Position numbers and translations under genes: made by a program | Shown here: positions 25,289-43,768 of the stretch, in pieces | Numbering within the stretch: the stretch's first letter is position 1 | Layout: the number at the start of each line of letters is the position of its first letter | Notes under the pieces: model-generated | The model's database searches: none | Seen by the model: only the letters and a program-made list of their open reading frames with translations | What the model was told of the DNA's origin: nothing | DNA from: Trinickia mobilis | Lineage (GTDB): Bacteria; Pseudomonadota; Gammaproteobacteria; Burkholderiales; Burkholderiaceae | Assembly (NCBI RefSeq): GCF_017315705.1 | Contig: NZ_JAFLRF010000001.1 | Span: 62,001 to 126,000 of the forward strand | Direction of reading: 5' to 3' | DNA: 64,000 bases

Positions 25289-25296
25289 TCGGGCAC

Positions 25297-25615: not shown

Positions 25616-25728
25616 TCAGGCGAAGCAGACAGAATTTGCGTTCTCGAGTCTGTCCGAGTTCGACTGCTTTGGCACGTAGGGCACCACGACGCCAAGGTGC
25701 CCGCGAAAATAAATTCCAGGGGGGCGTG

Positions 25729-25914
25729 ATGCATGCACAGCACACGATCGTTTCGAGGTTCCTGAAAGAGGACCAGGGCGCCACCATGGTCGAGTACGCG
25801 TTGCTCATATCGCTCATCGCGCTCATTGCCTTTGCGGGGGTCGTGGCTTTCGGCAATTCGATGCAAACCCTCTATCAGAACATTCGCGATCAAATCGCGG
25901 CCGCGCTCGCTTGA
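25729..25914 (+). CDS. flp: Flp type IVb pilin 3, divergent
   Basis: A 61-residue prepilin with a 17-residue leader (MHAQHTIVSRFLKEDQG) and the mature start ATMVEYALLISLIALIAF. It keeps the Glu-Tyr pair but diverges from pilins 1 and 2 after the helix, ending SMQTLYQNIRDQIAAALA. ATG 25729 follows GGGGGG; GTG 25726 is possible. It precedes the prepilin peptidase gene by 27 bp. It is likely a minor pilin or a subunit used under other conditions. Confidence 0.9.
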   Translation: MHAQHTIVSRFLKEDQGATMVEYALLISLIALIAFAGVVAFGNSMQTLYQNIRDQIAAALA

Positions 25915-25941
25915 CGCAAACAAACCAGACCGAGGCTCCTG

Positions 25942-26484: not shown

Positions 26485-26520
26485 CCGTGGCAATCGAGTG
26501 AGACGAGAGGGAGAGGAACC

Positions 26521-27924
26521 ATGACCGAACAGAATACCGAACACAGCGGCGGCGCACAGGTTACACGCCTGCACCAATCCCCGCTGTTGCGCGGACGCCT
26601 TGCGGACGCGCCGAGCGCTTCGCTGCGCGCCCCCCGCTCTCTCGCCGACACGGGTTTGCCGCCCGTGTTCGTCGGCCGTCTCGTGCTCAAATCGACGCTC
26701 TTGAACGGCAAGTCGAGCTTCTCCGATCTCTCGGAGCGGCACCGGCTTCCCGTCTCGGTGCTAGAGGACGTACTGGCGTTCCTCGTGCGCGAGCGTCTTG
26801 CCGAGATTACCCATCGCGGCGCCACCGACATCGACGTTCATTTCCGCCTCACGGAAGCCGGACGTGACCTTGCCGTCGATGAACTCTCGCGTTGCAGCTA
26901 CTGCGGCCCGGCACCCGTTGCATACGAGACCTATGTCGAGATCGTGCGCGAGCACTCGGTGCGCCGGCAGCGCATCTCGCAGTCCGACGTACGCGCCGCG
27001 TTCCGTGACCTGCGCGTCGACCCTGCCTTGCTCGATTCAGCCGCCGCCTCGCTCAACGCCGGGCGGCCGCTGATGCTGTACGGCCCGGCCGGCAGCGGCA
27101 AGACGTTCCTCGCCGAGCGGCTCGGACTGCTGCTGCAAGGCGACGTGCCGATTCCGTATGCCATCTACGTCAGCGGCGAGATCGTGCAACTGTACGACCC
27201 GCTGCTGCACCACGACGCCCCCGCGGCCAGCTCCGCGGCCGCGGGCGACAAGCGCTGGCGCATGTGCCGCCGGCCCGTCGTGATCTCGGGCGGCGAGTTG
27301 ACGCTCGAGGGGCTCGACCTGCGCTATGACGCCGCTGCGGGGTTTTATCAGGCGCCGCCGCACATGAAGGCAAACATGGGCCTCTACATCGTCGACGACC
27401 TCGGACGCCAACGGGTCGCCGCGCAGGACCTGCTCAACCGCTGGATCATGCCGCTCGATCGTGCCGTCGACTTGTTCACGCTGCAGTCCGGCTCGCGTTT
27501 CTCCGCGCCGTTCGACGTGTGGCCGGTGTTCTCGAGCAATCTCGATCCAGCCGCGATCGGCGACGAAGCGTTCTTGCGCCGCCTCGGCTCGAAGCTGCAT
27601 ATCGGTCCGCTGCCGCTCGAGAGCTACCGGGCCGTGTTCGAAGCGTGCTGCGCCTCGCTGGGACTCGCCGTCACGCAAAGCGCGTTCGACTACCTGCTGC
27701 ACAACCTGCACATGGTGAGCGGCAAGCCGTTTCTCGCCTGTTATCCGCGCGACCTGCTGAGCTTGGTGGGCGCATCCGTGGACTACCGCGGTGCCGCGCG
27801 CGAAGTGACCGAAGAAGGGTTGCGCGAAGCGTGGAACAGTTACTTCGGCACGGTCACGGATCACAACAGCCGTTATCCGCCGGCCACCGAACGACCCGGC
27901 AAAAAGCTTGCTGCCGGCGAATAG
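26521..27924 (+). CDS. Winged-helix AAA+ ATPase of the tad operon
   Basis: A 467-residue cytosolic protein. Residues about 45-120 resemble a winged helix (FSDLSERHRLPVSVLEDVLAFLVRERL). The AAA+ core has Walker A YGPAGSGKT, Walker B LYIVDDLGRQ and sensor-1-like VFSSNLDP. It is neither the secretion ATPase CpaF nor the TadZ-type ATPase, both encoded further along. Its place between cpaA and cpaB suggests a role in regulating or remodelling the Tad machine, for example a MoxR-like chaperone or a transcription-linked switch. Homologues occur in Burkholderia and Ralstonia tad loci as far as I recall, without known function. GGGAGAGG precedes the ATG. Confidence 0.8.
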   Translation: MTEQNTEHSGGAQVTRLHQSPLLRGRLADAPSASLRAPRSLADTGLPPVFVGRLVLKSTLLNGKSSFSDLSERHRLPVSVLEDVLAFLVRERLAEITHRGATDIDVHFRLTEAGRDLAVDELSRCSYCGPAPVAYETYVEIVREHSVRRQRISQSDVRAAFRDLRVDPALLDSAAASLNAGRPLMLYGPAGSGKTFLAERLGLLLQGDVPIPYAIYVSGEIVQLYDPLLHHDAPAASSAAAGDKRWRMCRRPVVISGGELTLEGLDLRYDAAAGFYQAPPHMKANMGLYIVDDLGRQRVAAQDLLNRWIMPLDRAVDLFTLQSGSRFSAPFDVWPVFSSNLDPAAIGDEAFLRRLGSKLHIGPLPLESYRAVFEACCASLGLAVTQSAFDYLLHNLHMVSGKPFLACYPRDLLSLVGASVDYRGAAREVTEEGLREAWNSYFGTVTDHNSRYPPATERPGKKLAAGE

Positions 27925-27956
27925 GCCGGCCCCCATGATCAACGAGGAGTCTTGCC

Positions 27957-28799
27957 ATGAAAAACAGTCGCGCTCTCATCATGCTGGCGATGGCCATGCT
28001 GGCCGGCCTGGCCGCCGTCGTCTTCGCGTCGCGATGGCTGATGCACACCTCGTCGAGCGGGATGACGACTGTTGCCGTCGCGACAGAAGACATCAATCTC
28101 GGCGAGCCGCTCAACACGAACTTGATTCGCACCGTCAGCTGGCCCACGTCGAGCGTGCCCCCGGGCTCGTTCACCGACGTAAAGGCGCTCGACGGTCGCG
28201 TCGTGCGCACGAGTCTCGCTCGCGGCGAGCCGGTGCTCGAATCGAAGCTCGCGCCGCTTGGCACGAAGGGCGGCCTGTCCGCCGTCATCAACGATGGTGA
28301 TCGGGCGATCACGGTCCGCGTGAACGACGTGATCGGCGTGGCGGGCTTCGCATTGCCGGGCAACTACGTCGACGTCATCGTCAACACGCAACAACCCGAA
28401 AGCAAGAACGACCAGCAGCAGAGCATCTCGAAGATCGTGCTCGAGAAGATCCTGGTCCTCGCCGTGGCCCAGCAAGTCAGTCGCGACGACACGCAGCCGA
28501 AGGTCGTCAACGCGGTCACGCTCGAAGTCACGCCCGATCAGGCGGAAAAGCTCGATCTCGCGCGCAGCGTCGGCACGTTGTCGCTGGTTCTGCGCAATCA
28601 GGTCGACAAGGACACGCTGACCACGAAGGGCGCGACCAAGCTCACGCTGCTCGGCACGCCGCCCGCACCGGCGTCGGCGCCCGCAGCCGCGCCGCGGCCA
28701 GCGCGCGTGCGCTATGTCGCACGCACCGAGCACGCCGAATCGAAGCGCGACTGTGTCGGCGTGCTCGCCGGCGTGAAGGGCAGCGTCGAATGCTTTTAA
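27957..28799 (+). CDS. cpaB: Flp pilus assembly protein CpaB/RcpC
   Basis: A 280-residue periplasmic protein with an N-terminal membrane anchor (LIMLAMAMLAGLAAVVFASRW) and a SAF domain (TVAVATEDINLGEPLNTNLI to GRVVRTSLARGEPVLESKLA), then the RcpC domain (GVAGFALPGNYVDVIVN, LEVTPDQAEKLDLARSVGTLSLVLR). It is thought to link the inner-membrane platform to the secretin. The Pro/Ala-rich stretch and the last 30 residues, with two cysteines, are less conserved. GAGGAG precedes the ATG. A 14-bp GC palindrome (28807-28820) separates it from cpaC. Confidence 0.92.
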   Translation: MKNSRALIMLAMAMLAGLAAVVFASRWLMHTSSSGMTTVAVATEDINLGEPLNTNLIRTVSWPTSSVPPGSFTDVKALDGRVVRTSLARGEPVLESKLAPLGTKGGLSAVINDGDRAITVRVNDVIGVAGFALPGNYVDVIVNTQQPESKNDQQQSISKIVLEKILVLAVAQQVSRDDTQPKVVNAVTLEVTPDQAEKLDLARSVGTLSLVLRNQVDKDTLTTKGATKLTLLGTPPAPASAPAAAPRPARVRYVARTEHAESKRDCVGVLAGVKGSVECF

Positions 28800-28902
28800 C
28801 GCATGCGGCGCCGCGGCGCCCTGACACCTAGCCGCGCCGCACGATGCAGGCAACTATGAAAAATCACGATGCGCACGCATCGAGCAACGGGGGCATTACG
28901 AA

Positions 28903-30831
28903 ATGAAAACGAAACTAGGGTTCTCATCCGACCGGGGTCCGCGCCGCTGCAAGCTGAGCAGCGCGGTAATGGCCGCCATGCTGGGCGCGGGGCTGCTGGG
29001 TGCGCAGCCGGGCAGCGCGCAAGTCGTCGTCGAGAGCGGCGTGCTCGCCAAGGGCAACACCGTCGCCGTGACGCAAATGGGCCGCAGGCCGACGACATTG
29101 AGCATCGCCGCGGCGTCCGCGCCCGCCGGCGCTCCACGCCCGGCCGCAGTCCCGCAGCCCCCCGTCGCCGAGGGGCCGCTGCGCGGCCCGAATTGCATCG
29201 GTGAGATCCGCGGCGAAACCACCGTCGTCGTGCCGCTCGGCAAGTCGACGCTCGTGCCCACGGACGAGCCCGTGCGCAACCGGACCCTCGGCAATCCTGC
29301 GATCGCGCAGGCAACCATGGTGTCGCCGCAAAGGCTTTACATTCTCGGCCAGTCGGTCGGCACGACCAACATGATCATCCAGGGAAGAAGCGGCGCGTGC
29401 CAGATCATCGACGTCGTCGTCAACGTGGACGCGGGCGGGCTGCAAGCGTCGCTGTCGCAGCTGATGCCCAACGAACGCAATCTCCGGGTGTCGACGGCCG
29501 CCGATAACTTTGTTCTCATGGGCCGCGTGTCGAGCGCGCAGGCAGCGCAAGAAGCGCTCGATATCGCGAAGGCGTACAGCCAGAGCGGCGGCACAGACAA
29601 CGCAAGCAAAAGCAGCGGCGTGCTGAACATGATGACGCTCGATTCGCCGCAGCAAGTGATGCTCGAAGTGAAGGTCGCGGAAGTGTCGAAGACACTGATC
29701 GATCAGCTCGGCTCGTCGCTGGCCCTTCAGGGCGGGTTCGGCTCGTGGACCGGCTCCCTCGTGAGCACCTTGCTGTCGGGCGCCTCCACCATCCTGACGG
29801 GCACCAAGTCGAACCACCTGCCGATTTCGATGTCCATCGACGCGCAAAAGACCGACAACCTCACCAAGATCCTGGCCGAGCCGAACCTCGTCACGATCAC
29901 CGGCCAGGAAGCCTCGTTCCTCGCCGGCGGCAAAGTGTTCATTCCCGTGCCGCAAAGCAACGCCAACGGCGGAACGACGATCACGCTTCAAGAGGAGGAG
30001 TTCGGCGTCGGGCTCAGATTCACGCCGACGGTGCTCGGCAACGGCCGCATCAACCTGAAGGTCGCGCCGGAAGTGTCGGAGCTCTCGCCGACCGGCGTCA
30101 CGGTAACCGCTACCGGCACGAGCAGCACGTCGATCCTGCCGCTCATCACGACGCGCCGCGCGTCGACGACCGTGCAAATGAACGACGGCGAATCGTTCGC
30201 GATCGGCGGCCTCATCAGCAACAACGTCACGGGCGCACTCAAGGCGTTTCCGGGTCTCGGCGAGCTGCCCGTGATCGGGGCGCTCCTGCGCAGCACGTCG
30301 TTCCAGCAGGACCGCACGGAGCTCGTGTTCGTCGTTACGCCGCATCTCGTCAAGCCGCTTCCGAACCAGAACTATCCGTTGCCGACTGACAGCTTTACGC
30401 AGCCCAACGAGGCCGACGTGTACGCCACAGGCGACATGGAAGGCCGCGGCGCCTCGCGCGCGAAAGGCGCGGCTCCGGCGGGCGGCGCACCAAGCAACTC
30501 GTCGACGCAGCCGTCCGCTCCGGCGGACTCGCAAGCGGGCGTGCCGTCGCCGGCACCGGTGCCGCGTGCGCCGACGGCTCCCGCCGATGCGCAGCTTGCT
30601 CCGCATGACCCGCCTCCCGCCGGCCCGGCGCCCGCTTCGCCGAGTTCGCGCGATGCCGCCAAGCAGCAGACGAGCGCCGCCCAGCCGCCCGCGAGCCAAT
30701 CCGCACCGGCACCGGACGCGCAAGCGGCGCGCGTCGCGCGCATTGAAGCGGCCGCCGCACGGATCGCCGAGACAGAGAAGCGGCGCGCGATAGCGATATC
30801 GAGCGCGTCAAACGGGACGATCAAGCAGTGA
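28903..30831 (+). CDS. cpaC: Tad pilus secretin CpaC/RcpA
   Basis: A 642-residue outer-membrane secretin forming the pilus exit channel. It has a signal peptide (about 40 residues, ending GSAQ), a BON-like/pilus-N domain (VPLGKSTLVPTDEPVRNRTL, RLYILGQSVGTTNMII) and the secretin core (VMLEVKVAEVSKTLIDQLG, ILAEPNLVTITGQEASFLAGG, MNDGESFAIGGLI, ELVFVVTPHLVKP). After the core, about 130 residues are Pro/Ala/Ser-rich and end in a basic segment, an extension longer than in CpaC of Caulobacter. It may cross peptidoglycan or bind the lipoprotein encoded next. Confidence 0.95.
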   Translation: MKTKLGFSSDRGPRRCKLSSAVMAAMLGAGLLGAQPGSAQVVVESGVLAKGNTVAVTQMGRRPTTLSIAAASAPAGAPRPAAVPQPPVAEGPLRGPNCIGEIRGETTVVVPLGKSTLVPTDEPVRNRTLGNPAIAQATMVSPQRLYILGQSVGTTNMIIQGRSGACQIIDVVVNVDAGGLQASLSQLMPNERNLRVSTAADNFVLMGRVSSAQAAQEALDIAKAYSQSGGTDNASKSSGVLNMMTLDSPQQVMLEVKVAEVSKTLIDQLGSSLALQGGFGSWTGSLVSTLLSGASTILTGTKSNHLPISMSIDAQKTDNLTKILAEPNLVTITGQEASFLAGGKVFIPVPQSNANGGTTITLQEEEFGVGLRFTPTVLGNGRINLKVAPEVSELSPTGVTVTATGTSSTSILPLITTRRASTTVQMNDGESFAIGGLISNNVTGALKAFPGLGELPVIGALLRSTSFQQDRTELVFVVTPHLVKPLPNQNYPLPTDSFTQPNEADVYATGDMEGRGASRAKGAAPAGGAPSNSSTQPSAPADSQAGVPSPAPVPRAPTAPADAQLAPHDPPPAGPAPASPSSRDAAKQQTSAAQPPASQSAPAPDAQAARVARIEAAAARIAETEKRRAIAISSASNGTIKQ

Positions 30832-30852
30832 CGTGATACCAAGGGGAATCTC

Positions 30853-31158
30853 ATGAAACTCGATTGCATTGTTTTCGCGCGCCGGGCACTTCTCATCGTG
30901 CCGGCCTGCGCACTGCTCGGCGGCTGCATGTCGAGCTCGCCGATCTGGGACGCGCATTTCGGCGAGTCCGTCAGGGCCATCACCCAGGCGCAAATCATCG
31001 ATCCGCAGGCGGGCGAGCACCGGCCGTCGAAGCCCGGCATCGACGGTAAGTCCGCTGCTTCGGCGATGGATGCATACGACAGCTCATTTAAAGCGCCCAC
31101 ACCGGCAGCCAATCCGTTCGTCATCGGCATCGGCGGCGGCGGCGGCGGCGGACAGTGA
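30853..31158 (+). CDS. Small pilus-locus lipoprotein
   Basis: A 101-residue lipoprotein: basic start, hydrophobic stretch, lipobox LLGGC with Cys25 after SPase II cleavage. The mature part is short and hydrophilic (QAQIIDPQAGEHRP) and ends in a glycine run. Its place after the secretin gene, where other loci encode CpaD/RcpB or a pilotin, suggests it helps secretin targeting or assembly. Similarity to CpaD is limited to the DPxAG-type segment, so the assignment is tentative. SD GGGGAATC precedes ATG 30853. Confidence 0.75.
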   Translation: MKLDCIVFARRALLIVPACALLGGCMSSSPIWDAHFGESVRAITQAQIIDPQAGEHRPSKPGIDGKSAASAMDAYDSSFKAPTPAANPFVIGIGGGGGGGQ

Positions 31159-31181
31159 TACCCATGCAGACGGAGATGATC

Positions 31182-32444
31182 ATGCGTCGCGAACTTCAAT
31201 CCCGTGTGCAACGCCGGACTCGTCAGTCCGAGCGCGGTGCCGTGGCCGTACTCGTGGCACTCGCACTCGTCGCGCTCATTGGAGCGGTCGGGCTCGCGCT
31301 CGATCTCGGCAAGCTCTATGTCGTCAGAAGCGAATTGCAGAACAGTGCGGATTCGTGCGCATTGGCCGCGGCCCGCGACCTGACGGGAGCAACGATCAAC
31401 CTCTCCGTCTCCGAGGCGTCCGGCATTACCGCCGGACACCTCAACTACGCATTCTTCCAGAGCACTCCGGTGCAACTGGCCGTCAACAACAACGTGACGT
31501 TCACCGATGCGCTGACCGACCCGTTCCTGCCGAAAAACTCGGTCACCAATCCGTCGACAATCAAGTACGTGCAGTGCACCACGTCGCTCTCGAACATCGC
31601 GAACTGGTTCATCCAGGTACTCGACGTGCTGCCGGGCGTGAACGTCGCCAACGCGTCGGTATCGGCCAACGCGGTGGCCACGATCAGCCCCGCGCAAACG
31701 ACGTGCGCGATTCCGGTATACGTCTGCCAGGCAGGCACCCAGGTCAGCCCGGCGATTCCCAATCAAAGCTATACGCCGGGCCAGTGGATCGCCTCGAAAG
31801 CCGGCTCGCCGCCCAGTTACGGGAACGGTAACTTCGGGTGGGCCGCGCTCAACGGCACCACCAACGCGAAGGACATCAGGGACGAGCTGACCGGCAACTA
31901 CTGCAGCCTCCCGGCCGTTGGCTCGACCGTCGGCTCCCCGGGCAACAAGCTCACGGACGACGGCGCATGGAACTCACGTTTCGGCATCTATCAGAACCCG
32001 TACTCCCAATCGAGCGATCCGACCGACTTCACGGGATATGCGTACACGTCCACGAGCTGGGCACCGCTAGCCAACGCATACAGCGACTTCGTCAGCAAGC
32101 GGGCCGCGTTCACAGCGTATCAGGGTGATGGGAACGGGGCCAACCAATCAGGTCTGACAACGAAGGGTTCCTCTTCGGGCACCAACTACACGGCTGGCGC
32201 CGACCGGCGCCTCGCGCTCGCCCCCGAGGTCGACTGCGGCCAGCTATTGGTCCCCGGCGGCCACTCCGCAAATATTCTCCGGTGGGATTGCGTCCTGATG
32301 CTCGATCCGATGGACAAGGCGGGCGACCCCGTTCATCTGGAGTACGAAGGCAACACGACGGACCCGACCATGCCGTGCGCGACGCACGGCATCCCGGGCA
32401 ACGGCTCATCGGTCGGGCCGCTGGTTCCGGTTCTGGTGCAATAG
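31182..32444 (+). CDS. tadG: TadG-like pilus assembly protein
   Basis: A 420-residue protein with the TadG N-terminus: ERGAVAVLVALALVALIGAVGLALDLGKLY (one membrane helix), then VRSELQNSADSCALAAARDLTG, the signature that follows the helix in TadG proteins. The remaining 330 residues are predicted periplasmic and rich in Ser/Thr/Asn with several Cys. The start ATG 31182 has GGAG at 6-nt spacing; the frame opens earlier at GTG 31155, overlapping the lipoprotein stop. TadG belongs to the minor pseudopilin/platform group. The large domain may act in adhesion or gating; that is inference. Confidence 0.85.
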   Translation: MRRELQSRVQRRTRQSERGAVAVLVALALVALIGAVGLALDLGKLYVVRSELQNSADSCALAAARDLTGATINLSVSEASGITAGHLNYAFFQSTPVQLAVNNNVTFTDALTDPFLPKNSVTNPSTIKYVQCTTSLSNIANWFIQVLDVLPGVNVANASVSANAVATISPAQTTCAIPVYVCQAGTQVSPAIPNQSYTPGQWIASKAGSPPSYGNGNFGWAALNGTTNAKDIRDELTGNYCSLPAVGSTVGSPGNKLTDDGAWNSRFGIYQNPYSQSSDPTDFTGYAYTSTSWAPLANAYSDFVSKRAAFTAYQGDGNGANQSGLTTKGSSSGTNYTAGADRRLALAPEVDCGQLLVPGGHSANILRWDCVLMLDPMDKAGDPVHLEYEGNTTDPTMPCATHGIPGNGSSVGPLVPVLVQ

Positions 32445-32455
32445 ACGAGGCGACC

Positions 32456-33004
32456 ATGAAAACCCGCTCCTCCTCACGCAAGTGCATGCGCGGCGCAGCT
32501 GCCGTCGAGTTCGCGCTGATGCTGATTCTGCTCGTTCCGCTCGCCCTCGGAGTGGCCGAGTTCGGCCACGCGATCTCGCAGTACGAAACGCTCACCAAGG
32601 GCACGCGCGACGCGGCGCGCTACCTCTCGACGTACCTGCCGAGCGACCCGGCCTACCCGCTCGCGCAGGCCCAGTGCCTCGTCATGTACGGCAGCGCGAC
32701 CTGCCCCACCGGCAACGCCACGCCGCTCGTCACCGGCCTCACGACATCGATGGTCGTGGTGTGTGACGCCGTGAACACCACGAATTGCCAGGACGCGACG
32801 GACCCGACCCTGTTCGCCAGCGTGCCGACCTACGACTCGAACAACGGCGCGCCCGGCGGCGCTCAGTCGGGCAGCATCAACGTGGTCGAGGTCAAGATCA
32901 AGGGCTTCAAGTACCAGCCGATCGAGCCGTTCTTCAATCCGACGCTCAATCTCGCGCAACTGATCTTCAACGACATCTTCACCGTCATGAGGCAAGTGTC
33001 ATGA
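32456..33004 (+). CDS. tadE: TadE-like pseudopilin
   Basis: A 182-residue pseudopilin. The segment RGAAAVEFALMLILLVPLALGVAEFG has the glycine and the Glu (VEF) of Tad pseudopilins before one membrane helix, then the typical YETLTKGTRDAARYLS motif. The periplasmic part ends near FNPTLNLAQLIFNDI. ATG 32456 follows GAGG. Its TGA overlaps the ATG of the next gene (ATGA), so the two are translationally coupled and probably made in equal amounts. Confidence 0.9.
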   Translation: MKTRSSSRKCMRGAAAVEFALMLILLVPLALGVAEFGHAISQYETLTKGTRDAARYLSTYLPSDPAYPLAQAQCLVMYGSATCPTGNATPLVTGLTTSMVVVCDAVNTTNCQDATDPTLFASVPTYDSNNGAPGGAQSGSINVVEVKIKGFKYQPIEPFFNPTLNLAQLIFNDIFTVMRQVS

Positions 33005-33477
33005 GCACTGTCATGGAGCAGCGTGCTGGTGCCATCCGTTCGCGGCGGCGCAAGGAGCGCGGCGCCGCCATGGTCGAGTTCGCACTCGTCGCGGCCGTCT
33101 TCTGCACGCTCCTGATCGGCGCCTTCGAGTTCGCCCGCGTGCTCTTCTACTGGAATACGGCCGGTGAAGCAGTGCGCCTCGGCGCGCGCACCGCCGTCGT
33201 ATGCGACGCGGACGCATCGGTGGTCAAAAAGAGGATCGCCTCGATGCTGCCGCTCCTCGCCAACTCGAACGTGACGCTGAGCTACACGCCGTCCGGCTGC
33301 GACTCGGATCCGACCACGGCGCGCAACACCTGCACGTTCGTCACGGTCAGCGTCACGAACGTACAGGTGCAGACGATGATTCCATTCGTCCCTCTCACGC
33401 TCACGATGCCGCCATTCACCACCACGTTGCCGCGCGAGAGTCTCATGACGGCCACGGGCGGCACAGTCTGTCATTAA
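33001..33477 (+). CDS. tadF: TadF-like pseudopilin
   Basis: A 158-residue pseudopilin: ERGAAMVEFALVAAVFCTLLIGAFEFARVLFYWNTAGEAVRLGAR matches the TadE/TadF helix and the post-helix motif. The periplasmic part has four Cys, possibly two disulfides. It overlaps the tadE-like gene by 4 bp. TadE and TadF together with TadG form the minor pseudopilin set in Aggregatibacter; naming this one TadF is by position and length only. Confidence 0.88.
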   Translation: MSTVMEQRAGAIRSRRRKERGAAMVEFALVAAVFCTLLIGAFEFARVLFYWNTAGEAVRLGARTAVVCDADASVVKKRIASMLPLLANSNVTLSYTPSGCDSDPTTARNTCTFVTVSVTNVQVQTMIPFVPLTLTMPPFTTTLPRESLMTATGGTVCH

Positions 33478-33504
33478 TTTTAGATAGTTCGGCGGGACAC
33501 CATC

Positions 33505-34713
33505 ATGATCGATCTCCTGAGCATTTCCACCGACGCCACGCGGCTCGCCGAGGTCGCACGCCTGATCGGCGAATGCGGCAGCTACCGGGGGACGCGTGCC
33601 GTCGCCACCCCGTCCCAGCTCCTCGCGCGCGGGGACAGTCTCGATGCATTCGACGTCCTGATCGTCGATGCCTTGTCGCTTCAGGATGCCGACTTGCCGA
33701 TCGTCACGGATTTGTGCCACCGGCATGGGCATCTCACATGCATTCTGCTGATTCCGGATGCGTCGCCTGAGACACTCATTGCCGCAATGCGCGCGGGCTT
33801 TCGCGACGTGATCCACTGGCCGCTCGATCAGCGCTCGCTTGCCGATGCGCTGCAGCGTGCAGAAAGTCGACGTGCGCTGCACGACACGCACGAGACCCGT
33901 ATCGTGTCGTTCATGTCGTGCAAGGGCGGGACGGGGACGAGTTTCATTGCCGGCAATGTCGCGCACGCGCTTTCGACGACGCTGCAAAAGCGTGTGCTGC
34001 TGATCGACCTCAATCAACTGTTCGGCGACGCCGCCTTTCTTGTCACGAACGAAACACCGCCTTCGACGCTGCCGCAGATGTGCGGGCAGATCGCGCGGAT
34101 GGATTCCGCCTTCCTCGACGCCTGCCTGCTTCATAGCAATGACCGGTTCGATCTGCTCGCCGGCGCGGGCGATCCGGTCAAGGCTGCCGACATCAAGGTG
34201 GAAACACTCGAATGGATCCTGGGCGTTGCGGTACCCCGCTACGATTTCGTGATCTTCGACCTCGGGCAGAGCATCAATCAGCTTTCGATACTCGCGCTTG
34301 ATCGCAGCGACGAAATCCACATCGTGTTGCAGGCCAGCATGCCGCACGCGCGCGCAGGGCGACGCCTGCAGGAAATCCTGTCGTCGCTCGGCTACTCCAC
34401 CGACCGGATGCGGCTGTTGCTGAACCGGTATTCCCGCCACGGCGAACATGCACGTGCCGCGATGGAGGAAGTCCTGGGCATGCAACCCTACGAGGTGCTT
34501 CCGGAGGACGCCGCGATCGTGGCCGCCGCGATGAACGAAGGGGTGCCGGTGTCACAGATCCGCCGTAATAGCGGCGTGGCGCGCAGTTTGCAGAAGCTCG
34601 CGCAAAAGATCGTCAACCACGGGCCGGCGTCCGCGCGCGCCCGCACACGCGGTGAGTCATTGGTTACCCGCTTCTTCGGCCGCAATGCGACGCCGAAGCT
34701 CAAGGCCATGTAA
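33505..34713 (+). CDS. cpaE: TadZ/CpaE pilus localisation ATPase
   Basis: A 402-residue ParA/MinD-superfamily protein with an N-terminal receiver-like domain (about 1-125, FDVLIVDALSLQDADLPIV) and a C-terminal ATPase domain. TadZ/CpaE proteins place the Tad machine at the pole. The P-loop reads SCKGGTGTSFIAGN: the deviant-Walker signature Lys is kept but the usual GK[ST] lysine is Thr, so ATP hydrolysis may be weak or absent. Walker B-like YDFVIFDLGQS follows. The gene lies between tadF and cpaF. Confidence 0.9.
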   Translation: MIDLLSISTDATRLAEVARLIGECGSYRGTRAVATPSQLLARGDSLDAFDVLIVDALSLQDADLPIVTDLCHRHGHLTCILLIPDASPETLIAAMRAGFRDVIHWPLDQRSLADALQRAESRRALHDTHETRIVSFMSCKGGTGTSFIAGNVAHALSTTLQKRVLLIDLNQLFGDAAFLVTNETPPSTLPQMCGQIARMDSAFLDACLLHSNDRFDLLAGAGDPVKAADIKVETLEWILGVAVPRYDFVIFDLGQSINQLSILALDRSDEIHIVLQASMPHARAGRRLQEILSSLGYSTDRMRLLLNRYSRHGEHARAAMEEVLGMQPYEVLPEDAAIVAAAMNEGVPVSQIRRNSGVARSLQKLAQKIVNHGPASARARTRGESLVTRFFGRNATPKLKAM

Positions 34714-34733
34714 TAAACGACTAGGAGAGCACC

Positions 34734-36101
34734 ATGTCATTGCGTGAACAGATATCCGCTCAATTGGTGAAGCCATTCGGAGAGCGAAACGGCGGGACAA
34801 ACGTGTCGAATGGGATGGCGCGCACCGCGTATCAGCAACTCAAGCGAGAGGTCCATCATTCGGTGCTCGAGCACGTCGAACTGGAACGTCTCTCGAGACT
34901 TCCGACCGATCAGGTCCGTCAGGAAATCGGCACACTTATCGGACGCATTCTCGAAGAAGAGAAGGCGCCCGCCAACGATGTCGAACGCAAGCAACTGGCG
35001 GTCGACGTGTACGACGAGATGTTCGGGTTCGGTCCGCTCGAAGTGCTGCTTCGCGACCCGACCGTATCCGACATTCTCGTCAATACGTCCAGTCAGACGT
35101 ACGTCGAACGCAAGGGCCGGCTCGAATTGACCGATGTGACGTTCTACGACGACGCGCACTTGATGAAAGTGATCGAGAAGATCGTGTCGCGCGTCGGACG
35201 GCGCATCGACGAATCGAGCCCAATGGTCGATGCGCGCCTGCCGGACGGCTCGCGGGTCAATGCGATCATCCCGCCCACCGCGGTGGACGGTCCGCTCGTT
35301 TCGATCCGGCGCTTCGCCGTGAATCCGCTGCAGGTGTCTGACCTGATCCAGCTGCAGACCCTCACGCCGCCGATGGCGGAGCTGCTCGACGCGCTGGCGC
35401 GCGCGAAGGTCAATATCCTCATATCGGGCGGCACCGGCAGCGGCAAGACGACCCTTCTGAACATTCTGTCCGGCTTCATTCCGGCCGACGAGCGCATCGT
35501 GACGATCGAAGACGCGGCGGAGCTGCAACTGCGGCAGCCGCATGTGCTCAGGCTCGAGACGCGTCCGCCGAACATCGAGGGGCGCGGCGAGGTCACGCAG
35601 CGCACGCTCGTGCGCAACGCCCTGCGGATGCGCCCCGATCGCATCATTCTCGGGGAAGTGCGCGGCGCGGAAGCGCTCGACATGCTCGCCGCCATGAATA
35701 CCGGCCATGAGGGTTCGCTTGCCACGATCCACGCGAACACGCCGCGCGATGCGCTCACGCGTCTCGAGAACATGATCAGCCTTGCCGGCATGTCGCTTCC
35801 GCCGAAAACGATGCGCCAGCAGATCGCGTCGGCGATCTCGGTGGTCATCCAGGCCTCCCGGCTAAACGACGGTCGGCGCAAGATCGTCAGCATCCAGGAG
35901 CTGACCGGCATGGAAGGGGAGATCGTCAACATGCAGGAAGTGTTCACGTTCAAGCGAACCGGAGTCGACCAGAACGGCAACGTGTGCGGCCATTTTTGCG
36001 CGACCGGCGTGCGACCGAAATTCGTCGAGCGGCTGCAGGCATTCGGCATCAACCTGCCGGATCAGATCTACGACCCCGCACGACGCTTCGAAACCACTTG
36101 A
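34734..36101 (+). CDS. cpaF: Tad secretion ATPase CpaF/TadA
   Basis: A 455-residue hexameric type II/IV secretion ATPase that powers pilus extension, and in Caulobacter also retraction. The N-terminal domain ([19 protein letters not shown]) is followed by Walker [13 protein letters not shown], the Asp box ([13 protein letters not shown]), Walker [14 protein letters not shown] and the His box ([18 protein letters not shown]). All catalytic elements look intact. AGGAGAG precedes ATG 34734. No separate retraction ATPase is present, as is normal for Tad loci. Confidence 0.97.
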
Positions 36102-36153
36102 TCAGCATGGCCCGACGTTTTTGCTGACCCGCTCAAGGTCTCAGGAGACCTGC

Positions 36154-37131
36154 ATGGACCCGATCTTCTACGCGTTTATCGTCCTGGTGTTCGTGACCGT
36201 GGTGCTCGCGGTCGAGGGCATCCATCTATGGTGGAACAGCCATCACGGCAGCGCCGCCCGGCGTATCGAAGCGCGCATCCGCGCATTGTCCGCAGGCGGC
36301 CAGGTGCAAAAGGAGCGTCTGACGATCCTGAAGGATCGCATGTTGGGCGAGACGAGCTCGCTCGAGAAGCTGGTGATGCAGATGCCGCGAGTCAAGGCGC
36401 TCGATCTTCTGATTCAGCAATCGGGGCTGAACTGGTCCGTTGCGCGGCTGATCGCCACGAGCCTGACCATCCCGCTGGTCCTGCTCGCCGCCGCCACCTT
36501 CCTGCCGGTGCCCATGGCGTTCGCCGCCATCGCCGCACTGGCAGCGGGCGCCCTGCCCTATCTCTATGTCAGTCGCCAGCGCGCCAAGCGGCTGCGCCGG
36601 CTCGAACTACAGTTGCCCGACGTCGCCGACACGATCGGCCGCGCGCTGCGCGCGGGCCACGCATTCCCCAGCGCGATCGGCATGGTGAGCGACGAGTTCG
36701 CCGAGCCGATGGCCGGTGAATTCCGCATCACGTTCGACGAAATCAACTATGGCGTAGCACTGAACGAAGCGTTGATGAATCTTGCGACGCGCGTGCCGAT
36801 TCGCGATTTGCGCTATTTCGTGATCGCCGTGCTGATCCAGAGGGAAACGGGGGGCAACCTAGCTGAGGTCCTGGACGGCATCGCGTTCCTGATCCGCGAG
36901 CGATTCAAGCTCTTCGACAAGGTTCGGGTTCTGGCCGCCGAGGGCAAGATGTCCGCATGGGTGCTTGGCTTGCTCCCGTTCCTGACGGCTGGGGCCATGA
37001 TGGTGCTGAATCCGACTTTCCTCCAAGTGCTCTGGCAAGACCCGGCCGGCCTGAAAGTGCTCGCAGCGATAGCTGTCATGATGGTGACCGGCGTGTTCTG
37101 GATGCGGCGAATCATCAGAATTCGCGTGTAG
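36154..37131 (+). CDS. tadB: Tad platform protein TadB
   Basis: A 325-residue inner-membrane platform protein with the T2SSF domain (LPDVADTIGRALRAGHAFPSAIGMVSDEF ... YFVIAVLIQRETGGNLAEVLDGIAFLIRER). Four membrane helices are predicted: one N-terminal, one or two before the T2SSF domain, and two near the C-terminus. It pairs with TadC to hold the pilin-loading platform above CpaF. The start ATG 36154 follows CAGGAGA; the frame is open to 36121. Confidence 0.95.
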   Translation: MDPIFYAFIVLVFVTVVLAVEGIHLWWNSHHGSAARRIEARIRALSAGGQVQKERLTILKDRMLGETSSLEKLVMQMPRVKALDLLIQQSGLNWSVARLIATSLTIPLVLLAAATFLPVPMAFAAIAALAAGALPYLYVSRQRAKRLRRLELQLPDVADTIGRALRAGHAFPSAIGMVSDEFAEPMAGEFRITFDEINYGVALNEALMNLATRVPIRDLRYFVIAVLIQRETGGNLAEVLDGIAFLIRERFKLFDKVRVLAAEGKMSAWVLGLLPFLTAGAMMVLNPTFLQVLWQDPAGLKVLAAIAVMMVTGVFWMRRIIRIRV

Positions 37132-37179
37132 TCGCGCGAGGTCCGGATGCGGTGCCGATCAAGATAGCAAGGAGATGTC

Positions 37180-38145
37180 ATGCAATCATCCAATACGATA
37201 AATATGCTGTTGCTCGTCGGTCTGTTCGCCGTTGTGTTCGCGGGGGTGCTCGGCGTCATGCTTGTCCTCTTGCCGCGCGACATGCGACGGCGTATCGAGC
37301 AGGCGGGCGGTGGGAGGGTTGCGCCGCAGTCCGAATCCATGTCGACGGGGACGGTATGGCTCGAAAAGATCGCGGGCATTTCGCAGCCCATTGCGAAACT
37401 GTCGCTTCCCAAAGAAAACTGGGAGAAGTCGGCGTTGCGCCTGCGCCTGATGAATGCGGGTTGGCGAGCGCCCGGCGCCGCAGCCATCTATTTCGCGGCG
37501 AAAACGGTGCTCGCGCTGAGCTTGCCTCTCGTGACGCTGATCTGGCTCGCCGGCACGTCGCTCGCCGCGGATCCGTTAATGCTGTCCTCCATCCTGATCA
37601 GTTTGGGGAGCTTCGGCTACTACTTGCCTAACTATGTGCTCAAGCGCTGCGTGCAATCGCGCCAGCGCACGATCTTCGAAGACTTTCCCGACGCGCTGGA
37701 CCTGCTGACCGTCTGCGTCGAGGCCGGTCTGAGTCTGGACGCCGGCCTCATGAAGGTGGCCGAGGAGATCAAGCTGCGCAGCGCGGTAGTCGCGGGCGAG
37801 CTCGAATTGATGCTGCTCGAGCTGCGCTCCGGATTTACGAAGGAAAAAGCATTGCGCAACCTCTCGCTGCGCACGGGCGTCGAAGATATCGATTCGTTCT
37901 GCACCATGCTGATTCAGGCTGAACGCTTTGGCACGAGCATCGGCGAATCGCTGCGCGTGCTGTCCGATACGCTGCGCACACGGCGCCGGAGCCGCGCCGA
38001 AGAGCAGGCAGCGAAGATCCCCGTGAAAATGCTGCTCCCGCTCGCGTTTTGCATCTTTCCCGCCTTGCTCACGGTATTGCTCGGACCGGCGTTCATTCAA
38101 GTCTATCGGGTTCTCTTGCCGACGATGACCGGCTCCGGAGGATAA
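37180..38145 (+). CDS. tadC: Tad platform protein TadC
   Basis: A 321-residue inner-membrane platform protein with a T2SSF domain (FPDALDLLTVCVEAGLSLDAGLMKVAEE ... FCTMLIQAERFGTSIGESLRVLSDTLRTRRRSRAEEQAAKIP). It is paralogous to TadB. The C-terminal tail reads LGPAFIQVYRVLLPTMTGSGG, and a second, divergent copy of this tail occurs 1 kb downstream (39105-39170). AAGGAGAT precedes ATG 37180. It is the last gene of the operon; an intrinsic terminator follows about 115 bp later. Confidence 0.95.
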   Translation: MQSSNTINMLLLVGLFAVVFAGVLGVMLVLLPRDMRRRIEQAGGGRVAPQSESMSTGTVWLEKIAGISQPIAKLSLPKENWEKSALRLRLMNAGWRAPGAAAIYFAAKTVLALSLPLVTLIWLAGTSLAADPLMLSSILISLGSFGYYLPNYVLKRCVQSRQRTIFEDFPDALDLLTVCVEAGLSLDAGLMKVAEEIKLRSAVVAGELELMLLELRSGFTKEKALRNLSLRTGVEDIDSFCTMLIQAERFGTSIGESLRVLSDTLRTRRRSRAEEQAAKIPVKMLLPLAFCIFPALLTVLLGPAFIQVYRVLLPTMTGSGG

Positions 38146-38259
38146 CGCCGCGCCGGCCGGACTTTTCGACGGCAACATTGCGTTCGCGAGTGCTGTTTCG
38201 ATGCGCTCCTTAGCGTGTGCGGAGCCCCTACCCGTGCGCCATTCGCGCGCGGGCTTTGA

Positions 38260-38289
38260 TGGGCGGCCACTACAGCGCCCATTTTTTTT
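38260..38289 (+). terminator. Intrinsic terminator of the tad operon (repeat copy 1)
   Basis: Stem TGGGCG (38260-38265) with CGCCCA (38276-38281), followed by eight T. The upstream flank and stem share GGCTTTGATGGGCGGC (38252-38267) with a second terminator at 39289-39329, so the element is duplicated around the methyltransferase gene. Confidence 0.8.
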
Positions 38290-38380
38290 CGTTGCAAGGC
38301 TCGCGCCGGCAACTGAGATTGGAAACACAAATCAATACAAGCGCACCGGAACCGCGGCGCGCGACTCTACGGGGGTCTTC

Positions 38381-39085
38381 ATGTTCAGCCGACTTGTCTC
38401 CACGGAAAACTCGCAAAGTTCAAGCGTGCCGCGCACGCCGGCACCCAACAGGGCGCACGACACAGCGCACGACTTGCCGCCGAGGTTCACAGAAGCGGCG
38501 TTGCGCGCGCTTACGGCAACGGTGCTCGGCGTGTTCGCCTACACGGCGATCATGGGATGGGTAGCGGCGCCGCACCGGGTGACCTTGCTTCTCTTGGTGG
38601 TGGGCGCCTGCCTGACGACGGGGTTGTCGCTCATCGCGCGCACGCCGAAACGCCGCGACTGGCGGCCGGTCGCGCTCATCTGCTCGCTTGGCGGGTCCTA
38701 TGGCTGCATCGCGTACAATCTCGCGCCCGGGGTGAAAGTCGTGCCCGAGGCGGTCGGTGCGACATTGCAAGTGCTCGGCATCTTGTGGCAGTTGTACGCG
38801 AAGGCATCGTTGCGGCGCTCGTTCGGCATCCTGCCCGCCAATCGTGGAGTCGTGTCGCGCGGCGCGTATTGCTTCGTGCGACATCCGATGTACCTCGGCT
38901 ATTTCGTCACCGATCTCGGCTTTCTTCTGGTGAACTTCAGCCTCTACAACATGCTCGTGCATGCCGCCCAACTGTCGCTGCAGATCGGGCGCATCAGGCA
39001 CGAGGAGCGGCTCCTGTCGGAAGACGAGCGCTATCGCGCGTATCGGGATGTCGTCCGATATCGGTTGATTCCCTTCGTGTTCTGA
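38381..39085 (+). CDS. Isoprenylcysteine methyltransferase-like membrane protein (copy 1)
   Basis: A 234-residue membrane protein with about five helices and the C-terminal PEMT/ICMT motif RGAYCFVRHPMYLGYFVTDLG followed by HEERLLSEDERYRAYRDVVRYRLIPFVF. Bacterial members methylate phospholipids or other membrane substrates; eukaryotic ICMT methylates prenyl-cysteine. It starts at ATG 38381 after GGGGGTC. It sits between the tad terminator and a relic of a second tadC, with the repeated terminator beyond, so it looks like an insertion into a tad 3' region. A second family member lies at 43091-43768. Confidence 0.78.
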   Translation: MFSRLVSTENSQSSSVPRTPAPNRAHDTAHDLPPRFTEAALRALTATVLGVFAYTAIMGWVAAPHRVTLLLLVVGACLTTGLSLIARTPKRRDWRPVALICSLGGSYGCIAYNLAPGVKVVPEAVGATLQVLGILWQLYAKASLRRSFGILPANRGVVSRGAYCFVRHPMYLGYFVTDLGFLLVNFSLYNMLVHAAQLSLQIGRIRHEERLLSEDERYRAYRDVVRYRLIPFVF

Positions 39086-39104
39086 CGGGGCAAGCGTGCC
39101 GCCC

Positions 39105-39170
39105 GCCGGGCCGGCGTTCATTCAAATCTACCGGGTGCTATTGCCCACCTTGTCCGGTACTGGCGGCTAG
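39105..39170 (+). pseudogene. Orphan C-terminal tail of a second tadC
   Basis: Reads AGPAFIQIYRVLLPTLSGTG then Gly and TAG, against LGPAFIQVYRVLLPTMTGSG at the end of the intact tadC. Many differences are synonymous, so it is not a recent copy; it may descend from another tad locus. It begins 20 bp after the methyltransferase stop with no coding sequence of TadC upstream. Confidence 0.75.
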
Positions 39171-39220
39171 CACTCACTGAACTTGTGGCACCGCGCTGAT
39201 TCGCAGCGCGGCGCGTGTTC

Positions 39221-39248
39221 GCGGGCCCCGTATCGGCCCGCTTTTTTT
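39221..39248 (+). terminator. Intrinsic terminator after the tadC relic
   Basis: Stem GCGGGCC (39221-39227) with GGCCCGC (39235-39241) followed by seven T. A second hairpin without T-run (39191-39198 with 39204-39211) precedes it. It would end transcription of the methyltransferase gene. Confidence 0.8.
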
Positions 39249-39296
39249 GAACTCGAAGACCCCCGCCAGTTCGCGCTTCAAGCGCGCTGGCTTTGA

Positions 39297-39329
39297 TGGG
39301 CGGCAAGCACTGCGCCCATTCTTTTTTTT
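39297..39329 (+). terminator. Repeat copy 2 of the tad terminator
   Basis: Stem TGGGCG (39297-39302) with CGCCCA (39313-39318), then TTC and eight T. It shares the 16-bp GGCTTTGATGGGCGGC flank (39289-39304) with the terminator after tadC. It lies 62 bp from the 3' end of the convergent flavoprotein gene. Confidence 0.75.
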
Positions 39330-39391
39330 GCGCCTTGAACTCAAGCCATTTCACGGAAATGCCAGCACAGGCTCCGCGTGCTTTAGGCACG

Positions 39392-41872
39392 CTACGATCG
39401 CACGCGCTCCGCAGCCGCATCATACGGCGCCTTCAAATGCAACGTCACGTCGAGCCTCTCCCCTGCCAGATCGATCTGATACCGCCCGCTTAGCAAGTAA
39501 TCGGCATCCACCGGCACCCCGCCCGCGTCGATATAGCCGAGTGCCACCGGACACCCCAGCGTATGCCCGAACGCCGCTGAACTGACCGAGCCCACCGCCG
39601 CGCCATCCCGCAGAATCGCCTCGCCGCCCCACAGCATCTTGTCGCCGTGTCCGTCGACGGTCAGCGCGACGAGCCGCCGCGCAAGCGGCTTGTTTTTGCG
39701 TTCCAGCAATGCCTCGCGCCCGCGAAACGGAATGTCCTTGTCGAGTTTGCAAGCGAACGCAAGACCCGCTTCGAACGGATCGCGATCGGGCGACAGCTCG
39801 CGTCCCCACGCGCGGTAGGCTTTCTCGATACGCAGCGATTCGAGCGCGTAATACCCCGCGTTGACGAGGCCGAACGCGGCGCCCGCGTCCATCAGCGTCT
39901 CGTAGACGCCGACCGCGAATTCCACCGGCACATACAGCTCCCAGCCCAGTTCGCCGACGTAAGTGAGGCGCGTCGCGCGCACCGTCGCGTAGCCGATGTC
40001 GACCTCGCGGCTCGTGCCGAAAGCAAACGCCTCGTTCGAGAAGCCGCTCTTCGAAACCTGCTGCAGCAGCGCGCGCGAATTCGGCCCCATCACGGCGAGC
40101 ACCGCGTATTGGCCGGTCACGTCGACGACCGTGCAGTGCTTGCCCTCGGGCAGATGCTTTTCGATGAAGTCGAGATCGCGCACGGTTTGCGCGGAGCCCG
40201 TGACGAGCAGGTATTGATCGTAGGCGAGGCGCGTGAGCGTGAAGTCCGATTCGTAGCCGCCGCGTTCGTTGAGCATGCCGGTATAAACGGTCTTGCCCGG
40301 CTCGACCGCCACGTCGTTCGCGACGAGCCCTTGCAGCACGTCTTCGGCATCGCGCCCCTTGAGCAGGAATTTCGAAAACGACGTCAGGTCGAAGAGCGCC
40401 ACGCGCTCGCGGCAGGCGCGATGCTCGGCCGCGCTCCATGCATGCCAGTTCTGCTGGCCGAAGCCGTATTGAATCGCGGGCGTCTCGCCCTTCGGCGCGA
40501 AGCAGTTCGCGCGTTCCCAGCCCATCTTGCTCCCGAAGCACGCGCCCGCGTCGCGCAGGTGCGCGTACAGCGGCGAACGCCGGAACGGCCGCGCGGTATC
40601 GAGTTCGCGATTCGGCCAGGGCATCGCGTAGTGAAGCCCCAGCGTCTCCTTCACGCGGTCGTGGAGCCAGGCGTCGTTGCCGTTGAAGTGCGCGAAGCGG
40701 CGGATGTCGACCGGCCACAAATCCATCGTCGCCTCGCCCGCCATGATCCACTCGGCGAGCGCCATCCCGGCGCCGCCCGCGGACGCGATCCCCATCGAAT
40801 TGAAGCCCGCGCCGACATAGAAGTTCTTGAGTTCCGGCGCCTCGCCGACGATGAAATTGTTATCGGGCGTGAACGACTCCGGCCCGTTGTAGAACTGCCG
40901 CACTTGGGCCGTTTCGAGCGCGGGCACGCGGATCAGCGCGTTCTGCATCAGGATCTCGAACTGGTCCCAATCGTCGGGCAGCAATTGGAATTCGAAGTGC
41001 TCGGGAATGCCGTTCATGCCCCACGGCTTCGCGTCGGGCTCGAAGCCGCCCATCACGAGGCCGCCCACTTCCTCCTTGAAGTAGATATAGCCGTCCGGAT
41101 CGCGCATGACCGGCAAGTCGGGATGCACGCCGGGAATCTTCTCGGTGACGATGTAGTAGTGCTCGGCCGAATGCAGCGGCACCGTCACGCCGCACAGGCG
41201 GCCGATCGCCTTCGCCCACTGGCCGCCGCAATTGACGACGATATCGGCGCCGATCGTGCCCGCCTCGCCGGCCTTGGTGCGCCACTCGACACCCGTTGCC
41301 TTGCGTCCCGCGCCCGTGCGCTCGGTTTGAACGCCCGTCACGCGCACGTTCTCGACGATGCGCGCGCCGCGCATCCGTGCGCCGCGTGCGAGCGCCTGCG
41401 TGAGGTCGGTCGGGTTCGCCTTGCCGTCGCCGGGCAGCCAGACGGCGCCGAGCAGATCGTCGGTGCGCATCACCGGCCACAGCTCGCCCGCCTGGCTCGC
41501 GCCGATCACGTCGCACTCGACGCCATACGCGCGCGCCACCGCGGCCGTGCGCTTCAGTTGCGTCATGCGCTCGCTCGTGCGCGCAACCGACAGCGAGCCG
41601 CACGGCTTCCAGCCGGTCGCGAGCCCGGTGTCCGCTTCGAGTTCGGCGTAGAGCTTGGTCGAATAGCGGATCAGCTTCGTCATGCTCTCCTGCGAGCGCA
41701 ATTGGCCGACGAGTCCGGCGGCATGCCAGGTCGTGCCGCACGAGAGCTGGCCTTGTTCGAGCAGCGTCACGCCGGTCCAGCCGGCCTTCGCGAGGTGGTA
41801 GGCGACGGAACAGCCGATGATGCCGCCGCCGATGATGACAACGCGCGAATGCGAGGGAATGCCGGAGCTCAT
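39392..41872 (-). CDS. Sarcosine/dimethylglycine dehydrogenase-like FAD-GcvT protein
   Basis: An 826-residue two-part enzyme. The N-terminal FAD oxidoreductase domain has the dinucleotide motif VVIIGGGIIGCSVAYHLAKAG (residues 11-31) and VGAGFNSMGIASAGGAG near 360. The C-terminal half (about 430-810) is a GcvT/aminomethyltransferase-like folate-binding region (FDLTSFSKFLLKG, YTGMLNERGGYESDFTLTRL, LRIEKAYRAWGRELSPDRDP). This architecture is that of dimethylglycine and sarcosine dehydrogenases, which demethylate N-methyl-glycines and pass the one-carbon unit to tetrahydrofolate. The exact substrate is not fixed. Standing alone here, it converges with the tad/methyltransferase region. Confidence 0.88.
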   Translation of the reverse strand: MSSGIPSHSRVVIIGGGIIGCSVAYHLAKAGWTGVTLLEQGQLSCGTTWHAAGLVGQLRSQESMTKLIRYSTKLYAELEADTGLATGWKPCGSLSVARTSERMTQLKRTAAVARAYGVECDVIGASQAGELWPVMRTDDLLGAVWLPGDGKANPTDLTQALARGARMRGARIVENVRVTGVQTERTGAGRKATGVEWRTKAGEAGTIGADIVVNCGGQWAKAIGRLCGVTVPLHSAEHYYIVTEKIPGVHPDLPVMRDPDGYIYFKEEVGGLVMGGFEPDAKPWGMNGIPEHFEFQLLPDDWDQFEILMQNALIRVPALETAQVRQFYNGPESFTPDNNFIVGEAPELKNFYVGAGFNSMGIASAGGAGMALAEWIMAGEATMDLWPVDIRRFAHFNGNDAWLHDRVKETLGLHYAMPWPNRELDTARPFRRSPLYAHLRDAGACFGSKMGWERANCFAPKGETPAIQYGFGQQNWHAWSAAEHRACRERVALFDLTSFSKFLLKGRDAEDVLQGLVANDVAVEPGKTVYTGMLNERGGYESDFTLTRLAYDQYLLVTGSAQTVRDLDFIEKHLPEGKHCTVVDVTGQYAVLAVMGPNSRALLQQVSKSGFSNEAFAFGTSREVDIGYATVRATRLTYVGELGWELYVPVEFAVGVYETLMDAGAAFGLVNAGYYALESLRIEKAYRAWGRELSPDRDPFEAGLAFACKLDKDIPFRGREALLERKNKPLARRLVALTVDGHGDKMLWGGEAILRDGAAVGSVSSAAFGHTLGCPVALGYIDAGGVPVDADYLLSGRYQIDLAGERLDVTLHLKAPYDAAAERVRS

Positions 41873-42040
41873 GGAGGTCTCGAATAGGGACGAAGCACGG
41901 ATGACGGAATGCCGGCACGCGAAATCGGCGCCGCGTTACGGTGCAACATAATGCCACTATTTGATGCATGATGCCACATCGTCGGCGCCAAATAATAGCG
42001 CGGAAACAACACGACTGCCGCCCAATCTCCTCGCTCGGGA

Positions 42041-43090: not shown

Positions 43091-43768
43091 TCACCAAACA
43101 TACGGCACGAGCCGATACCGCACGCGCGCCATATACGCGTCATACCCCGTCAACTCTTCAGCAAGCACGCCCTCTTCGCGCACGGCGCGATAACCGAGCC
43201 CCGCGACGATAATCGGCACGAACGCGAGCCCCCACCACGAGCCGAGCAGCAGCGCCATGCCGACGAGATAAAGAATCGCGCTCGAATACATCGGATGCCG
43301 GACGTACGCATACGGCCCCGTGTCGATCACCTTGTGTCCGCGCTCGCTTTGAATCTTGACGACCGGCGCCGCGAAACTGTTCTCGCGAAACACGAGGCAG
43401 ACGAGGTAGATGCTCGCAGCCATCATCGCGCCGCCGATGCCTTGCAGCCACAGCGGCACGTCCGACCAGTGAAAGCGTCTCGCGTCGAGCCCCATCAGCG
43501 CGAGCCACACGATCCACGCCACGGCGGCGCACATCATGAAGATCTGATCCCAGCGCTTCTGCCCGCGCTGCACGAAAATCGACATGCGCTCGGCAAGCAG
43601 CGCCGGATCGCGCCGCGCAAGCCAGATGCCCGAGGCAAGGCTAAGCAGCGTCATTTCGACGAGAAATGCCCAGCCGGCCGGCCATCGCGTCGTACCGGCC
43701 GCGCCGAACAGCAACGCGCCCATGCCTAACACCCAACCCAGCGTGCTGACGATGAGACGTGGGATCAC
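43091..43768 (-). CDS. Isoprenylcysteine methyltransferase-like membrane protein (copy 2)
   Basis: A 225-residue membrane protein with about five helices. The C-terminal ICMT/PEMT motif is GPYAYVRHPMYSSAILYLVG, followed by REEGVLAEELTGYDAYMARVRYRLVPYVW. The start is GTG 43768, with GGAGGG upstream, and overlaps the stop of the acetyltransferase gene by the sequence GTGA, so translation is coupled. A methyltransferase linked to an arylamine N-acetyltransferase suggests joint modification of a small amine or a lipid, but the substrate cannot be told. The frame upstream of 43768 is a shadow of the acetyltransferase. Confidence 0.82.
   Translation of the reverse strand: MIPRLIVSTLGWVLGMGALLFGAAGTTRWPAGWAFLVEMTLLSLASGIWLARRDPALLAERMSIFVQRGQKRWDQIFMMCAAVAWIVWLALMGLDARRFHWSDVPLWLQGIGGAMMAASIYLVCLVFRENSFAAPVVKIQSERGHKVIDTGPYAYVRHPMYSSAILYLVGMALLLGSWWGLAFVPIIVAGLGYRAVREEGVLAEELTGYDAYMARVRYRLVPYVW

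Follow-up and report, generated by a model that had tools for sequence, protein, structure and literature searches.

How did a methyltransferase gene come to lie between two tadC 3ʹ ends, each followed by a terminator with the same flank? The question is raised by a tad locus of Trinickia mobilis, which was analyzed in a stretch of 64,000 nucleotides of the genome (the window, to which all coordinates refer). An earlier note on this DNA had answered it with recombination between two tad loci, which left a methyltransferase cassette between duplicated 3ʹ ends. The close-congener comparison covered three genomes in all: the own genome (G000) and two others, G001 and G002.

Two tadC ends around a methyltransferase gene

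The window contains a predicted Tad/Flp pilus locus, identified by genes for TadV, RcpC, TadE/G-like, TadB, and TadC proteins. On the plus strand, the genes run from a TadV-like prepilin peptidase (25942–26484), in which PF01478 alone and no methylase domain was found, through RcpC/CpaB (27957–28799; PF16976), the secretin RcpA (28903–30831), three TadE/TadG-like genes (31155–33477; the first at 31155–32444, the others ending at 33004 and 33477; PF13400, PF07811), a CpaE/TadZ-like gene (33505–34713), and a CpaF/TadA-like ATPase gene (34734–36101) to the platform protein TadB (36157–37131) and an intact tadC of 321 aa (37180–38145). The Pfam scan found PF07811 twice and PF13400 also among these genes, and one T2SSF domain (PF00482) each in TadB and TadC. 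RcpA, TadZ, and the TadA ATPase are identities that we presume from position, for RcpA also from sequence, for open reading frames (ORFs) with relatives compared in other tad loci. The window tadC belongs to type A, one of the two clades named here, A and B, in the TadC tree described below.

Downstream of tadC, on the same strand, lie terminator 1 (38245–38289), with an 8-bp stem, a 10-base loop, T8, and the flanking 16-mer GGCTTTGATGGGCGGC at 38252–38267; an intact gene of 234 aa for a membrane methyltransferase of the ICMT family, here called ICMT (38381–39085; PF04140); an orphan tadC 3ʹ end of 20 codons and a stop (39107–39170); a terminator-like hairpin with T7 (39221–39241); and terminator 2 (39282–39326), which carries the same 16-mer at 39289–39304. 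The right-flank dehydrogenase gene, which we take to be of the dimethylglycine/sarcosine type, follows on the minus strand (39392–41872). Repeat comparison and Pfam thus bear out every element that the earlier note had listed, namely tadC, a terminator flanked by GGCTTTGATGGGCGGC, the ICMT gene, the TadC tail, and the second terminator. The tail, which that note called in-frame, translates to GPAFIQIYRVLLPTLSGTGG and a stop in an open frame, but this frame is not that of the ICMT gene.

Two repeats bracket the ICMT gene, the 63-bp tadC 3ʹ end at 78% identity and the 45-bp terminator at 87%. The last 63 bp of tadC match the tail at 49 of 63 positions, and no other place in the window, whichever the strand, exceeds 34 of 63; the terminators match each other at 39 of 45, compared with 26 of 45 for the next best place in the window (plus strand only). 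In the genome of 7,997,074 bases, a 14-base core of the 16-mer occurs twice, both times at the locus, and a looser stem pattern occurs at four places, two of them at the locus. The core is absent from the two congeners, and a homologue of terminator 1 follows tadC in Trinickia fusca. The core and looser-stem counts rule out a genome-wide terminator repeat, which the earlier note had named as a threat to its reading, together with recurrence of the tail motif after unrelated genes. The latter was not found either: a TadC protein search located the orphan tail in the own genome at this locus only. We give almost no credence to the idea that a common terminator and a conserved motif met here by chance, or that the assembly is wrong. 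The looser stem does occur at two other genome places, but the matches lie far above background, the 14-base core occurs nowhere else in the genome, the locus lies inside a 610-kb contig, and an independent genome, G002, has the 3ʹ end of ICMT as well as terminator 2 with its preceding hairpin.

The next issue is whether the tail is a copy of the neighboring tadC. The two differ at 15 of 63 bases, one of them in the stop codon, and at 4 of 20 residues (V/I, M/L, T/S, S/T), all of them conservative, and the tail contains no stop or frameshift. So few residue changes have a probability of 0.0014–0.0023 under neutral change, and a simple tandem duplication with neutral decay of the second copy failed on this ground (P about 0.002). 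With 15 base changes and only four conservative residue changes, the tail is not a decayed copy of its neighbor. Moreover, of the first 45 bases, the own tadC shares 43 with the tadC of G002 and 37 with the tail, and is thus nearer to the former; no tandem repeat was found in 37000–40000. A local duplication, in which ICMT was inserted at the end of tadC, the tail and terminator were duplicated, and the second copy decayed, would explain why a tadC end and a similar terminator, in the same order, occur both before and after ICMT; against the above results, we regard it as improbable. On these comparisons, the tail comes from another A-type tadC, here termed A2 to set it apart from the present window cluster, A1. 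Compared with 117 tadC ends, it matches best in Cupriavidus/Ralstonia rows (39 of its first 45 bases), but this is too close to the rest, and 63 bp is too short, for the donor to be named. The two ends differ as two functional alleles do, indicating that at least three sources are needed. To speak of duplicated 3ʹ ends is accordingly too simple: the two tadC ends with terminators are present, but copying of one from the other is disfavored.

Affinities of TadC and ICMT

Trees were built for TadC (73 rows) and ICMT (27 rows). The type A clade has 20 rows (100/99), comprising the window, G002, T. fusca, T. symbiotica, other Trinickia, and several Paraburkholderia; apart from the window and G002, none of its 18 other members has an ICMT relative within 6 kb on either side. 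The type B clade has 11 rows (100/99), including G001, T. dabaoshanensis, and some Paraburkholderia, and ICMT lies downstream in 11 of 11, a biased count since several rows were picked for an ICMT already found there. In a fairer sample, chosen by TadC alone, 11 of 299 genomes had a TadC with 65%–69% identity to the G001 protein (the query itself counting as 100%); seven of these carried ICMT within about 3.7 kb downstream and four lacked it in about 9–10 kb, indicating that B clusters do not invariably include ICMT.

The window ICMT groups with Trinickia ICMTs behind B-type tadC (98/96) and next with that of G001 (99/98). The two trees disagree, which indicates that in the window TadC and ICMT are related to different cluster types. 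The window tad proteins are nearer to those of T. fusca (CpaF 90%, TadB 84%) than to those of G001 (71% and 54%), and the TadE/G-like genes between RcpA and CpaE are present in A clusters and missing from B clusters in the stretches compared. In the B-type pairs of Trinickia, for example T. dabaoshanensis, and of G001, ICMT lies on the same strand 16–80 bp behind tadC (tblastn ends), tadC itself is about 50%–55% identical to the window TadC, and neither a pair of terminators nor a TadC tail was seen. The locus studied here differs from a known Tad/Flp (type IVc) locus in its hybrid 3ʹ end, an A/B/A mosaic of an A-type tadC, a B-type ICMT, and a second A-type tadC end. The 107 bases before ICMT gave only short matches to the B loci.

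The comparison with congeners that the earlier note proposed places a B-type tadC–ICMT cluster of G001 at the same chromosomal site. The flanks of G000 and G001 are collinear, at 86%–90% identity in 3476–9634 and 39403–41878 and 79% in 15034–16511, while DNA identity of the tad genes is 66%–76%. The dehydrogenase gene is syntenic in both congeners, with 91% and 94% protein identity to the G001 and G002 counterparts (DNA 88% in G001), and among 30 loci with about 1.5 kb of flank, a tad cluster stood beside it in three, all of the own genus. Collinear flanks around unlike tad genes indicate that the site has held both cluster types within one genus. A second tad locus with ICMT after tadC, for which the note had suggested looking, exists at this site in G001. 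Two further tad-like loci of G000 (contigs C61 and C54; L185 and L186) have TadC 32%–35% identical, and no relative of the window ICMT was found there. Between G000 and G001, the dS of ICMT is 0.85, compared with 0.45 for a flanking gene, which rules out ICMT as a plain vertical remnant of the G001 cluster.

The disagreement of the trees and the G001 site support recombination between tad loci of different type, as the earlier note had it; its number of loci, two, falls short of the three or more sources. A different view is that a promiscuous ICMT, unrelated to B-type clusters, was inserted alone, and that the tail is an older tad remnant left in place. In its favor, several TadC clades have ICMT-family genes near tadC, other such genes stand elsewhere in genomes with no tadC nearby, and four B-type genomes are without ICMT; we nevertheless hold it to be unlikely, since the window ICMT groups with precisely those directly behind B-type tadC, in Trinickia and, at the same site, in G001.

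The congener G002 and probable cluster replacement

G002 is collinear with the window through tadC to 38215 and then jumps to 39025, so that terminator 1 and most of ICMT have been lost. It retains the last 57 coding bases of ICMT and 24–28 bases beyond (39025–39109, 95.3% identical over 85 bp). At the position of the tail it has other sequence, followed by the same hairpin and a counterpart of terminator 2; from 39156 onwards, identity between G000 and G002 is 78%. The ICMT remnant indicates that a hybrid of A-type tadC and ICMT was common to G000 and G002, and the junction to the right of the hybrid differs between them. At L010:3335–3445, G002 has a secreted-looking, glycine-rich reading frame of 36 aa, ending in ..GGTGG at the stop position of the tail. 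It begins like a longer glycine-rich gene found in G002 and in another genome, G040, and its final codons may be those of a tadC. When the source of the G002 stretch after ICMT was sought in 299 family genomes, the matches outside the genus were short, 23–46 bases or so; two such short matches that were inspected, in G040 and in G002 itself, both begin the longer glycine-rich gene.

Synonymous divergence between G000 and G002 also changes along the locus. The dS was 0.068–0.170 in 11 tract genes (22554 to 38145) compared with 0.163–0.374 in 13 flanking genes, under half of the flanks (Mann–Whitney, one-sided p 2.5e-5). For this list, ORFs were dropped if shorter than 150 aa or if their dN/dS was at least 0.6, and overlaps were resolved to the lowest ratio. 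The test excludes 17300–17848 (0.157), 18313–18789 (1.81), 18982–20073 (2.42), and 21346–22434 (0.549), which lie between the left flank and the tract in a stretch not collinear with G002. The region 17991–22434, between left flank and tad tract, is variable, with acyltransferase, SAM-methyltransferase, and glycosyltransferase genes, and G002 either has a strongly diverged version (dS 1.8–2.4 in two ORFs) or lacks it. GC3 of sampled tract genes was not above that of the flanks, making stronger codon bias an unlikely cause of the low dS; gene-to-gene differences in silent-site constraint could explain part of it.

The end of ICMT, at 95.3%, goes with the more similar tract, and what follows the tail, at 78%, with the divergent flank. 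Taken together, the dS step and the identity drop at the ICMT/tail junction suggest that tad and ICMT probably moved as one block (22554–39109, no strand assigned; tad cluster, terminator 1, and ICMT) after the split of G000 and G002. The block would have been exchanged between the two lineages, or would have entered both from a common source, with its right edge at the ICMT/tail junction. The cassette, accordingly, need not have arisen in the own genome, as the divergence step suggests block movement.

We consider it likely that the locus is the scar of repeated replacement of tad (Flp pilus) clusters at a single site, with 3ʹ ends left behind as fossils. The A1 cluster, with its own terminator and the ICMT gene of B affinity, forms a block of about 16.6 kb abutting the last 20 codons and the terminators of the A2 tadC. 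Each incoming cluster would have recombined via shared flanks or short homologies, and a right-hand crossover near the tadC 3ʹ end would have left the 3ʹ ends of earlier clusters standing before the dehydrogenase gene. When G000 and G002 split, the site may already have contained A2 or its 3ʹ end, and the block may have spread only after tad A1 and ICMT had been joined as a hybrid; A2 would come earliest in the order and tad A1 plus ICMT later. As for mobile elements, there was no tRNA in the window and no transposase among the proteins scanned, a subset of the ORFs, and near the junctions only inverted repeats of low complementarity were found. None of the 13 records in a plasmid search spanned the whole arrangement.

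The methyltransferase and the Tad pilus

The window ICMT scores above the cut-off for PF04140 (32.5 bits; cut-off 24). With its Pfam matches above cut-off, it resembles the ICMT/PEMT family (PF04140, PF04191), and the RHP-YLGY, EE, and VRYR-IP motifs of the catalytic region are kept in an alignment with five relatives. It differs from a protein-S-isoprenylcysteine O-methyltransferase in scoring far under the equivalog cut-off of NCBIfam NF040696 (29.9 bits; cut-off 160), and no prenylated-protein context was seen. The chance that ICMT would show no stop after neutral change of 4%, 8%, and 12% of sites is 0.47, 0.22, and 0.12, respectively, and intactness alone is no proof of selection; judged from its sequence, ICMT is probably still a working enzyme. 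The predicted terminator 1 lies between the two genes and should uncouple ICMT from tadC, so that they would no longer share a transcription unit. No sigma-70-like promoter was found in 38100–39420. A second ICMT/PEMT-family gene (PF04191, PF04140) lies at 43091–43720 on the minus strand and is a distant relative of the tad-linked ICMT, with 37% identity over 79 residues.

Pairing of ICMT with tadC is not confined to this locus. An ICMT-family gene was found near tadC, within 1.5 kb of flank, in 12 of 30 loci chosen by TadC alone (L218–L247, one being that of the query); in 11 it shares the strand of tadC and lies downstream, at most about 0.7 kb away, and in one it is on the other strand; among 80 loci picked for closeness to A-type TadC, six had an ICMT relative. 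The pairing recurs in TadC clades including Trinickia, Pandoraea, and Paraburkholderia. On pPT70, a 70-kb plasmid of Paraburkholderia terrae (L181), tadC, a MarR-type gene, and an ICMT-family gene stand in a row, and such clusters might travel on a plasmid of this kind.

The Tad prepilin peptidase is described without a methylation domain in the available part of PMC10191384, and the window peptidase, with the peptidase domain only, agrees with that description as far as it goes. The recurrent pairing and a peptidase without a methylase domain make methylation of a Tad component an attractive idea. That ICMT is a Tad-dedicated methyltransferase, acting on the mature pilin or another Tad component, is nonetheless a tentative and rather doubtful proposal. 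If true, ICMT would make up in trans for the methylation step missing from the Tad prepilin peptidase, and its recurrence behind tadC in several clades and its travel with a foreign tad cluster would reflect a partnership. A different role is guessed at in the available part of PMC10224339 for an ICMT relative of Burkholderia cenocepacia that neighbors a collagen-like protein. Our literature search, to which subscription papers were external, found nothing linking isoprenylcysteine with TadC or tight adherence.

Mobility between lineages is what the window cluster would have in common with the Tad/Flp locus, the "widespread colonization island", as the available part of PMC4122924 describes it. 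The event is of a known kind, and the fossil junctions and the ICMT–tadC pairing are the parts worth following. Cluster replacement at this site would offer a readable case in which a whole secretion/pilus cluster was exchanged, the old 3ʹ ends serving as datable fossils that show where the crossover fell, and it poses a question that can be put to the test, namely the reason for which ICMT-family methyltransferase genes are met time and again immediately after tadC.
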